Source: Egicoccus sp. AB-alg2 (GTDB lineage Bacteria > Actinomycetota > Nitriliruptoria > Nitriliruptorales > Nitriliruptoraceae). From it: a DNA stretch of 64,000 nucleotides. The notes under the pieces are model-generated. The model ran no database searches, had not been told where the DNA came from, and was given only the letters and a program-made list of their open reading frames with translations. The stretch lies in contig NZ_JBGUAX010000006.1 of assembly GCF_041821065.1 (NCBI RefSeq), positions 1 to 64,000 of the forward strand, written 5' to 3'. Of the stretch, positions 43,421-47,498 are shown piece by piece. Position 1 is the stretch's first letter. Each line of letters opens with the position of its first letter. The translations under genes were made by a program, and so were the position numbers.

Positions 43421-44206
43421 TCAGGCCTCGAGGTGCTTCATGCGGTCGAGGACCTTCTCCCCGTCCGGGTCCTCGAGGCGGTCGACGAGGCGGCCGTCGG
43501 CGAGGAAGAGCACCTCGTCGGCGTAGCCGGCCGCGGTCGGGTCGTGGGTGACCATGACGACGGTCTGCCCGAAGTCGTCGACGGCCCGTCGAAGGAAGCC
43601 CAGCACCTCGGCGCCCGAGCGTGAGTCGAGGTTGCCGGTGGGCTCGTCGGCGAAGACGACCGCGGGGCGGCTGACCAGGGCCCGGGCGACGGCCACGCGC
43701 TGCTGTTGCCCGCCGGACAGCTCCGAGGGGCGGTGGCCGAGCCGATCCCCCAGCCCGATGACGTCGATCACGGTTGCGAACCAGTCGGGGTCGGGATCGG
43801 CGCCGACGAGCGCCAGCGGCAGCGTGATGTTCTCCCGCGCGGTCAGGGTCGGCAGCAGGTTGTAGGCCTGGAAGACGAACCCGATGCGTTCGCGGCGCAG
43901 CACCGTCAGCTGCGGGTCGCTGAGGGTGCCCAGCGAGACGTCACCGATCCAGGCCTCGCCGGAGGTGAGCGTGTCCAGCCCGGCCAGGCAGTGCATCAGC
44001 GTGGACTTGCCGGACCCGGACGGCCCCATGACGGCCGTGAAGCGGCGGGCGGGAACGTCGACGCTCAAGCCGTCGAGGGCGCGGACGGCGGTGTCGCCGC
44101 GGCCGTACACCTTGACGGCGTCGACGGCGCGGGCCGCCGGGCGTGCGGCCCCGGCAGCGGCGGCGGGCGCGAGCGCCCCGGTCGTGGAGGAGGGAGGGGT
44201 GTCCAT
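43421..44206 (-). CDS. ABC transporter ATPase, MacB/LolD type
   Basis: This 261-residue ATPase has Walker A GPSGSGKST, Q-loop FVFQAYNLLPTLTARENI, signature ELSGGQQQRVAVARAL, Walker B VVFADEPTGNLD and H-loop VTHDP. The N-terminal 25 residues are Ala/Pro-rich. It energises the FtsX permease downstream. A TAGCGT -10 box ends eight bases before the ATG, so the transcript may be leaderless. Confidence 0.95.
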   Translation of the reverse strand: MDTPPSSTTGALAPAAAAGAARPAARAVDAVKVYGRGDTAVRALDGLSVDVPARRFTAVMGPSGSGKSTLMHCLAGLDTLTSGEAWIGDVSLGTLSDPQLTVLRRERIGFVFQAYNLLPTLTARENITLPLALVGADPDPDWFATVIDVIGLGDRLGHRPSELSGGQQQRVAVARALVSRPAVVFADEPTGNLDSRSGAEVLGFLRRAVDDFGQTVVMVTHDPTAAGYADEVLFLADGRLVDRLEDPDGEKVLDRMKHLEA

Positions 44207-44214
44207 GGCGCCTC

Positions 44215-44220
44215 ACGCTA
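44215..44220 (-). promoter_or_regulatory. -10 box of the MacB-like operon
   Basis: TAGCGT on the minus strand with eight bases to the ATG: a probable leaderless start. Confidence 0.5.
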
Positions 44221-44361
44221 CGCGGCCCGGGAACCGGCGGGCATCGGGTACCACCCTGAGCCGGCCCCCGGGCTTCGTCGCCGGACCCGGGGACGGCCTG
44301 GGGGATCGCGTCCGCACGGCCGGGAACCTGGTCGCGCGACCTTGCAGGCGGCTGGCTCATC

Positions 44362-44394
44362 CGGACAGCGGGCGTCCGCTTCGGGTCGTAGCGT
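44362..44394 (+). promoter_or_regulatory. Inverted-repeat operator with -10 box, copy B
   Basis: CGGAC-N7-GTCCG (44362-44378) and TAGCGT (44389-44394) with the same ten-base spacing as copy A at 12629. It lies in the 400-base divergent gap (44207-44606), upstream of the second promoter at 44531. No gene starts between the two promoters, so it may be an extra promoter of the exporter genes. The gap also contains a twice-repeated gagttcgggg. Confidence 0.45.
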
Positions 44395-44530
44395 CGGCTC
44401 CGGTCGAAGCGCCGCGACCACGACCTCGCCCCCCTCGCCCGGGATCGGCGAGTTCGGGGACGAAGTCGTCGGGGACCGATGAGTTCGGGGGATCTCCCGT
44501 GTCAGTACGGCGTACCGCTCCCGGCGACCC

Positions 44531-44561
44531 TTGACCTCGAGCCTCCTCGAGGTCGTAGCGT
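44531..44561 (+). promoter_or_regulatory. MerR/SoxR-type promoter of the exporter operon
   Basis: TTGACC (44531-44536) and TAGCGT (44556-44561) are separated by 19 bp. A perfect inverted repeat gacctcgag-N4-ctcgaggtc (44533-44554) overlaps the -35 box and fills the spacer. The over-long spacer with a centred dyad is the hallmark of MerR-family promoters, and the half-site resembles the SoxR box. Start of transcription should fall near 44568, about 40 bases before the ATG. Confidence 0.75.
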
Positions 44562-44606
44562 CGGGCGCCGCACAGCTGGTGTGTCGTCGTGAGAGGACGA
44601 GAACCG

Positions 44607-45656
44607 ATGAACGAGGTGATCCGGGCCACCGGCCTGGTCAAGCGCTACAAGGAGGTCACGGCCCTCGACGGGCTCGACCTCGTCGTCCCCGAGGGCACCG
44701 TGCTCGGGCTGCTGGGCCCGAACGGCGCCGGCAAGACGACGGCCGTGCGCATCCTGACGACGCTGCTGGTCCCCGACGAGGGACACGTCGAGGTGGCCGG
44801 GATCGACGCGTTGCACGACCCGGAGGCCGTCCGCAAGCGGATCGGTCTGTCGGGACAGTACGCCGCCGTCGACGAACAGCTGACGGGGTTCGAGAACCTC
44901 GACATGATCGGCCGGCTGTACAAGCTCGGACGGCCTCGCGCACGCCAGCGGGCCGGCGAACTGCTCGAGCGCTTCCGGCTCGCCGACGCCGGCAACCGCC
45001 CGGTGAAGACCTACTCGGGCGGTATGCGCCGACGGTTGGACCTCGCCGGCGCACTCGTCGCCGAGCCGGCCGTGCTGTTCCTCGACGAGCCGACGACCGG
45101 GCTCGACCCGCGCAGCCGGTCCGACATGTGGGACGTCATCCGGGAACTGGTCGGGCGCGGCACCACGCTGCTGCTCACGACCCAGTACCTCGAGGAGGCG
45201 GACCTGCTCGCGGACGACATCGTGGTGATCGATCGTGGACAGGCCATCGCGCGTGGGACCGCTGACCAGCTCAAGGCCCAGGTGGGCGGGGAGCGCGTCG
45301 AGGTGGTGGTGACCCACGAGGGCGATCTGGCCGCGGCCGAGGCGATCCTCGACGAGGTGGCCGTCGGCGTGGTGCAGGTCGAGTCGCACACGCGGCTGCT
45401 GACCGCCCCGGTCACCGGCGGCGCCGACGACCTGATGCGGACGCTGCGCAGCCTCGACGCCCGCGGGGTGAAGATCAGCGACGTCGGGCTGCGGCGACCC
45501 ACCCTCGACGACGTCTTCCTCACCCTCACCGGCCACACCGCCGAGGAGGTCGAGTCCGACACCGGCGACGGATCGTCCGCGCCACCGGCCGACGCGGCCG
45601 CCGCCAGCCCACTGGTCACCGCGAGCGACGACACCTCGCAGGAGCACGCCCGATGA
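44607..45656 (+). CDS. ABC transporter ATPase, DrrA/daunorubicin-resistance type
   Basis: This 349-residue ATPase has Walker A GPNGAGKTT, signature YSGGMRRRLDLAGAL, Walker B VLFLDEPTTGLD and H-loop TTQYLEEAD. The DrrA-type C-terminal region is DDVFLTLTGH, with a low-complexity tail. It powers the DrrB-like permease downstream (overlap ATGA) to expel a hydrophobic or redox-active drug. The ATG at 44607 has a GAGAGGA site; the GTG at 44589 is less likely. It is driven by the MerR/SoxR-type promoter at 44531. Confidence 0.95.
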   Translation: MNEVIRATGLVKRYKEVTALDGLDLVVPEGTVLGLLGPNGAGKTTAVRILTTLLVPDEGHVEVAGIDALHDPEAVRKRIGLSGQYAAVDEQLTGFENLDMIGRLYKLGRPRARQRAGELLERFRLADAGNRPVKTYSGGMRRRLDLAGALVAEPAVLFLDEPTTGLDPRSRSDMWDVIRELVGRGTTLLLTTQYLEEADLLADDIVVIDRGQAIARGTADQLKAQVGGERVEVVVTHEGDLAAAEAILDEVAVGVVQVESHTRLLTAPVTGGADDLMRTLRSLDARGVKISDVGLRRPTLDDVFLTLTGHTAEEVESDTGDGSSAPPADAAAASPLVTASDDTSQEHAR

Positions 45657-46463: not shown

Positions 46464-47498
46464 TCAGGTCCCGGTCAGCGCGGGGTTGTGCGCGGCCGGG
46501 ACCTGCTCGTCGGCCGGCGGCGGGCCTGGCGGGGTGCCGTCACCGAACGGCCGGCCGCCGAGTTCCTCGCGGAAGTGCGGGCTGGCCCAGTTCGCCAGAT
46601 CCGGGCCTCTGGGCACCACGCCGGTCGGGTTGATGTCGGTGTGCACCTCGTAGTAGTGGCGCTTGATGTCCACGAAGTCGATCGTGTCGCCGAAACCGGG
46701 CGTCTGGAACAGGTCGCGGGCGTAGGCCCACAGCACCGGCATCTCGGTCAGCTTCGACCGGTTGCACTTGAAGTGCCCGTGGTAGACCGGGTCGAAACGC
46801 ACCAGCGTCGTGAACAGCCGGACGTCGGCCTCCGTGATCGTGTCGCCCACGAGGTAGCGCTGGGTGGCGAGACGGTTCTCCAGCCAGTCGAGGCGGGCGA
46901 ACAACCGGTCGTAGGCCTGGCCGTAGGAGCCCTGGGTGCCGGCGAAGCCGGCCCGGTACACGCCGTTGTTGACGTCGCGGTAGACCAGCTCGCTCACCTC
47001 GTCGATCTGGTCGCGCAGGTGGTCGGGGTACAGCTCGGGCGCGCCGGGACGGTGGAATTCGCGCCACTCGGTCGACAGGTCGAGCGTGATCTGTGCGAAG
47101 TCGTTGGTCACGACCGCGCCGGAGGGGATGTCGACGATGGCGGGCACGGTGATGCCGCGCTCGTAGCCGGGCACGGCCGCTTCGTAGGCCTCCTCGAGCC
47201 GCTCGATGCCGAGCACCGGGTCGACGCCGCCGGGGTCGAGGTCGAATCGCCAGCTGCGCTGGTCGTGCGTCGGGCCCGCGACGCCCATGGACAGCACGTC
47301 CTCGAGGCCCAGCAGCCGCCGCACGATGATGGCGCGGTTGGCCCACGGGCAGGCGCGGCTGACGACGAGCCGGTAGCGGCCGGCCTCGACCGGCCATCCC
47401 TCCCGGCCGTCGGCGGTGATACGTGTCGCGAGGTAGCGCGTGTCGCGCTCGTAGCGCTCCTCGACGTAGGTGCCCTGCGATGTGGTGTGATCGGTCAT
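46464..47498 (-). CDS. Glutathionyl/mycothiolyl-hydroquinone reductase (GST Xi-like)
   Basis: This 344-residue GST-superfamily enzyme has catalytic Cys50 in SRACPWANR, the mark of hydroquinone reductases (YqjG/PcpF type). AIVDIPSGAVVTNDFAQI and RYLVGDTITEADVRLFTTLVRFD follow. The thiol used in an actinobacterium may be mycothiol. It reduces thiol-conjugated quinones back to hydroquinones. It lies next to the SoxR-type exporter operon, which fits redox-cycling chemistry, but has its own -10 box. Confidence 0.93.
   Translation of the reverse strand: MTDHTTSQGTYVEERYERDTRYLATRITADGREGWPVEAGRYRLVVSRACPWANRAIIVRRLLGLEDVLSMGVAGPTHDQRSWRFDLDPGGVDPVLGIERLEEAYEAAVPGYERGITVPAIVDIPSGAVVTNDFAQITLDLSTEWREFHRPGAPELYPDHLRDQIDEVSELVYRDVNNGVYRAGFAGTQGSYGQAYDRLFARLDWLENRLATQRYLVGDTITEADVRLFTTLVRFDPVYHGHFKCNRSKLTEMPVLWAYARDLFQTPGFGDTIDFVDIKRHYYEVHTDINPTGVVPRGPDLANWASPHFREELGGRPFGDGTPPGPPPADEQVPAAHNPALTGT

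Follow-up and report, generated by a model that had tools for sequence, protein, structure and literature searches.

A predicted SoxR-type promoter in front of a DrrAB-type exporter in Egicoccus sp. AB-alg2 and the small redox regulon it may belong to

The closest described relatives of the locus analyzed here are the SoxR-soxS system of E. coli and the SoxR regulon of S. coelicolor. The canonical SoxR box is CCTCAAG-N4-CTTGAGG. SoxR targets in S. coelicolor include an ABC transporter, a flavoprotein reductase, and other redox enzymes (ecaA-D, SCO2478, SCO0320ext; PMC4146615, excerpted text). As inducers of this SoxR, the excerpted text of PMC5288332 names actinorhodin, plumbagin, benzoquinone, pyocyanin, and phenazine methosulfate, with paraquat being inactive. 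SoxR belongs to the MerR family, whose long-spacer promoters become active only once the regulator has distorted the DNA (PMC9909328, in the parts accessible). The locus resembles the E. coli system in having a SoxR homologue and a MerR-type promoter logic, but its predicted targets appear to be direct. It also resembles the S. coelicolor regulon, in which one soxR gene likewise serves a few direct targets, namely an ABC exporter and flavin- or NAD(P)H-dependent redox enzymes behind SoxR-box promoters (PMC4146615, same excerpt). In contrast to that regulon, the exporters are of the DrrAB type, with a separate ATPase and ABC-2 permease, the half-site is CCTCGAG, and the predicted targets additionally include an oxidase, a short-chain dehydrogenase (SDR), and a DUF6506 protein. 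A SoxR-driven exporter is already known; what is described here is a different exporter family and a known system in a new bacterial lineage.

The window, that is, the whole 64,000-nucleotide stretch analyzed, lies on the contig designated C6. The features around the exporter are as follows:

44477..44507, forward strand: predicted SigG-type (ECF sigma) promoter, CGATGA-N18-GTC-NN-TA, a full match to the published consensus
44531..44536, forward strand: -35 element TTGACC of the predicted SoxR-type promoter, the same hexamer at 6 of 6 genome sites
44533..44554, no strand assigned: predicted SoxR-box-like operator, exact 9-4-9 inverted repeat GACCTCGAG-CCTC-CTCGAGGTC
44556..44561, forward strand: -10 element TAGCGT of the same promoter, 19 bp from the -35 element, with TA at this spacing at 6 of 6 sites
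44607..45656, forward strand: drrA, ABC ATPase of a DrrAB-type exporter, 349 aa, TIGR01188 345.7 bits
45653..46456, forward strand: drrB, ABC-2 permease, 267 aa, overlapping the drrA stop, PF01061 94.8 bits

A preliminary description of this DNA had reported TTGACC and TAGCGT separated by 19 bp and a perfect 9-4-9 dyad at 44533-44554, and these coordinates are exact. The spacer occupies 44537-44555, and the dyad is a palindrome within this region that overlaps the -35 box. The same description called the dyad centered in a long spacer; the 19-bp spacer and the dyad stand, whereas the centering is approximate, the dyad being centered at 44543.5 and the spacer at 44546. The promoter points toward drrA, whose ATG (44607) follows TAGCGT by 45 bp. 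A promoter and terminator scan of 44150-44700, which admits spacers of 16-18 bp only, found nothing. Each half-site differs by one base from CCTCAAG, and both forms occur in SoxR-bearing genomes under one pattern. Taken with the evidence below, SoxR very probably uses the site as its operator, within a promoter of the MerR type; SoxR binding, redox switching, and the substrate of the pump are predicted from sequence. The drrAB pump is probably made when the cell meets redox-active, quinone- or phenazine-like compounds.

The exporter had been described as DrrAB-like, a label that fits its two genes unequally. The ATPase is DrrA by the curated cut-off (TIGR01188, 345.7 vs. 312.45 bits), whereas the permease falls below both DrrB cut-offs (TIGR00025, 68.7 vs. 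146.9 bits; TIGR01247, 62.1 vs. 223.05 bits) and is an ABC-2 permease that is DrrB-like only. Convergent with the exporter lies a gene for a glutathionyl-hydroquinone-reductase-like GST (46464-47498, reverse strand), which matches the solved structures 4uss and 3r3e. This gene was considered as a SoxR target and rejected, as its upstream region holds no box by eye and none was placed there by the genome search. It nevertheless adds a quinone-detoxification theme beside the exporter, without a SoxR box.

The GC content is 0.726; this high value and the relatives that carry the box suggest an actinobacterium. Exact 9-4-9 dyads number 5 in the real 64-kb window and 1.2 per simulated window. A perfect dyad by itself is therefore ordinary at this GC content, which would favor a palindrome arisen by chance and without function; the promoter as a whole, however, stands out. 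In none of 30 simulated windows does either the dyad core (ACCTCNAN6TNGAGGT) or the frame (TTGAC-N20-TANNNT) occur; the real window has two of each, at coinciding positions, 44531 (forward strand) and 55268 (reverse strand). A search of the genome for TTGACCTCNANNNNNNTNGAGGTNNTA (TTGACCTCNAN6TNGAGGTNNTA) with up to three mismatches returned eight matches, of which six are exact and two carry three mismatches, while the reversed pattern returned none. Six near-identical, promoter-shaped copies against zero in the reversed control leave a chance palindrome with a negligible probability. The exact 22-mer of the drrA dyad occurs once in the genome. When the dyad was set to 24 instead of 22 bases, no exact match appeared among the matches listed, and 400 were found at two or fewer mismatches.

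All six sites combine the box with a fixed 19-bp spacer, and their consensus is TTGACCTCGA.C....TCGAGGTC.TA..GT, so the genome-wide search proposed in the preliminary description gave a positive result. This geometry also bears on whether a simple repressor of the TetR or a similar type uses the dyad as its operator, with the promoter spacing a coincidence. TetR repressors often control DrrAB operons, which lends this explanation some general plausibility. However, 6 of 6 sites have TTGACC and TA around the dyad at 19-bp spacing, and none of 30 simulated windows does, which makes a simple repressor highly improbable.

Each of the six boxes precedes an open reading frame (ORF), and together these encode two exporters, three redox enzymes, and one DUF6506 protein:

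C6 44531, forward strand: drrAB of the window
C2 546985: DrrA-type ATPase of a second DrrAB exporter, with a permease-like ORF behind it
C3 296210, reverse strand: FAD_binding_4/BBE oxidase (berberine-type flavin oxidase)
C6 55268-55238, reverse strand: second predicted SoxR-type promoter in the window, TTGACC-19-TACCGT, dyad GACCTCGAC-N4-GTCGAGGTC
C6 54590..55183, reverse strand: NADPH-dependent FMN reductase-type flavoprotein, 197 aa, PF03358 103.3 bits, behind the 55268 site
C6 64980: SDR, its site 980 bases past the window end
C6 256983 (L033), reverse strand: DUF6506 protein, 105 aa

The two DrrA-type ATPases behind SoxR boxes share 51% identity. For three of the six targets, an exact-pattern box also occurs in a relative, namely for the SDR in the sister species G042 (72% identity), for the FMN reductase in G044 (44%), and for the oxidase in G046 (59%). 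In relatives with a box before an ABC exporter, such as G232 (L083), the exporter is of another type, a fused PF00664-PF00005 half-transporter. For this lineage, literature searches gave no study, and the six sites amount to a complete, testable predicted SoxR regulon. SoxR control of a DrrAB exporter was likewise not found described in the open-access literature, as judged by its listings. Two of the downstream genes are worth noting in themselves. A QueA-like (Queuosine_synth) ORF beyond the window end (C6, L032 2265-3026) overlaps the SDR stop, and the SDR of G042 has a similar ORF behind it; an enzyme of the tRNA-modification type is an odd member of a predicted SoxR operon. The position of the DUF6506 protein directly behind a SoxR-type promoter offers a functional clue for the DUF6506 family.

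The genome encodes about a dozen MerR-type proteins, with 11 MerR_1 matches and 11 PF00376 matches, one of which is absent from the first list. Only one of them is SoxR, on contig C8 at about 50.2 kb; it scores 211 bits against the TIGR01950 cut-off of 116.9, carries the Fe-S cysteines CxxCxCx5C as CIGCGCLSLETC, and has E. coli SoxR (2zhg, E 2.4e-43) as its best solved relative. The soxR gene with a [2Fe-2S] cysteine motif that the preliminary description told its readers to look for is thus present in one copy. A seventh dyad core, with 0 mismatches, lies upstream of soxR itself (L006 1412-1433), without the TTGACC/TA frame and ending 49 bases before the soxR ATG. The region holding it is common to soxR and a divergent zinc-type dehydrogenase (quinone oxidoreductase-like) gene. 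Because this dyad overlaps TAATGT, a possible -10 box, the arrangement suggests autorepression of soxR. The same core precedes soxR in G042 with 1 mismatch.

With so many MerR-type genes, another member of the family (TipA-like, a MerR-VOC fusion, or an uncharacterized one) could own the six sites, leaving SoxR to other targets. A precedent exists among the relatives: in G007, a box with 1 mismatch adjoins a different MerR gene, so MerR proteins other than SoxR can own such boxes. Of the MerR loci of this genome that were read, L002-L012, however, only soxR has the box core, and the upstream dyads of the TipA-like (L007) and MerR-VOC (L004) genes differ by eye. The latter two dyads, of the CCTGACG type, lie in long-spacer promoter-like sequences of their own that end in TAGCGT or TAGGGT, which suggests autoregulation.

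The distribution of the box across genomes also points to SoxR. In a phylum sample of 396 genomes, searched with the exact box pattern and with SoxR counted when over its cut-off, SoxR is present in 21 of 21 box genomes and in 61 of the 375 others (Fisher 4.5e-16, a value that overstates the association, since the genomes are related, with 8 genera among the 21, and kinship is uncorrected). The link is weaker in the class sample of 66 genomes, 24 of which have a close SoxR; with up to one mismatch allowed in the box pattern, SoxR occurs in 6 of 8 box genomes and 18 of 58 others (p 0.023). The exceptions are G007 and G004, which has an exact box and no SoxR match in a genome that is 74% complete and belongs to the genus of the SoxR-bearing G005. 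In three relatives (G044, G300, G353), the box directly adjoins soxR, and in G044 it lies between soxR and a divergent relative of the window's FMN reductase, common to both. With the co-occurrence in 21 of 21 genomes set against it, ownership of the sites by another MerR protein is unlikely, and the SoxR interpretation of the preliminary description is supported by the six sites, the single SoxR with its cysteine motif, and this co-occurrence.

If SoxR owns the sites, its dimer, made from the single gene on another contig, would sit on the dyad. As long as the [2Fe-2S] cluster is reduced, the 19-bp spacer would hold the -35 and -10 elements out of phase and transcription would be low. A redox-active compound would oxidize the cluster, whereupon SoxR would distort the DNA, RNA polymerase could engage both boxes, and drrAB would be made; the pump may then export the inducing compound. 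The same switch would drive the second DrrAB pump, the FMN reductase, the berberine-type oxidase, the SDR with the QueA-like ORF, and the DUF6506 protein. Because paraquat is inactive on S. coelicolor SoxR (PMC5288332, excerpted text), quinones and phenazines are better probes of this response than the paraquat suggested in the preliminary description.

How the box came to stand before drrA was examined in 30 drrA loci, this one included, with the orthologue starts anchored by tblastn before the box scan; 61 of 66 class genomes had a drrA match. A box is present only in this genome (0 mismatches) and in G046 (2 mismatches, 273 bp upstream), whereas the remaining upstream regions have at least six mismatches at the fixed positions. 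SoxR is encoded in 12 of the genomes behind these loci, so that 2 of 12 have the box at drrA; the sister species G042 has soxR and no box there. The best reading of this distribution is that SoxR control was added to the pump in this lineage specifically, wiring a DrrAB-type exporter to SoxR.

A different signal may be older at this gene. The GTC of the SigG-type element lies 27 bp before TTGACC, and the element matches the M. tuberculosis SigG promoter, CGATGA(N18)GTCNNTA (PMC3776920, in excerpt), exactly; the preliminary description had overlooked this additional promoter. The commonest 8-mer in the drrA upstream regions is CGATGAGT (8 of 30), and an element related to the SigG type precedes 8 of the 30 orthologues, that of this genome among them. 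In 16 of 35 motif-holding loci, GTC stands at one fixed offset, which 8 of 8 GATGAGT sites upstream of drrA share; no other offset has more than five. On informal inspection, many of the other 19 loci resemble coding sequence. The genome holds six copies of ACCGATGAGTT. Each of the two SoxR-type DrrAB promoters has one of these copies upstream, at distances of 70 and 56 bp from TTGACC. Both pumps have the order SigG-type then SoxR-type, 27 and 41 bp apart. A literature text search with the 11-base element returned, among the matches listed, only unrelated primers or sequences.

Elsewhere in the class, the element precedes genes for glyoxalase/3-dmu-9_3-mt (VOC) proteins, a RibD_C protein, and BNR-repeat proteins. 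The two most induced SigG targets of M. tuberculosis are glyoxalase-like, and mitomycin C induces one of them, Rv0887c, by a route that depends on SigG (PMC3776920, accessible portions). The resemblance thus extends to genes of the type of Rv0887c and Rv0911, while the tandem arrangement with a SoxR promoter before an exporter differs from the mycobacterial case. On the basis of these motifs, two promoters in tandem, one for an ECF sigma factor and one for SoxR, probably serve drrAB. Whether the exporter integrates two alarms, the SigG-type promoter being the older one in this family of exporters in the class and the SoxR promoter a later gain, is an evenly balanced question. Were that so, actinobacteria would long have answered DNA-damaging redox drugs, for example quinones, with a SigG regulon of VOC proteins, a RibD-type reductase, a BNR-repeat protein, and DrrAB pumps. 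A real SigG-type promoter in tandem would connect drug export with a mycobacterial sigma factor that is poorly understood, and would give this factor a wider, checkable regulon. In G046, the order of the two elements is reversed, with a degenerate SoxR-like box (L098 1225-1255) first, the SigG-type element (1303-1330) second, and drrA behind them.
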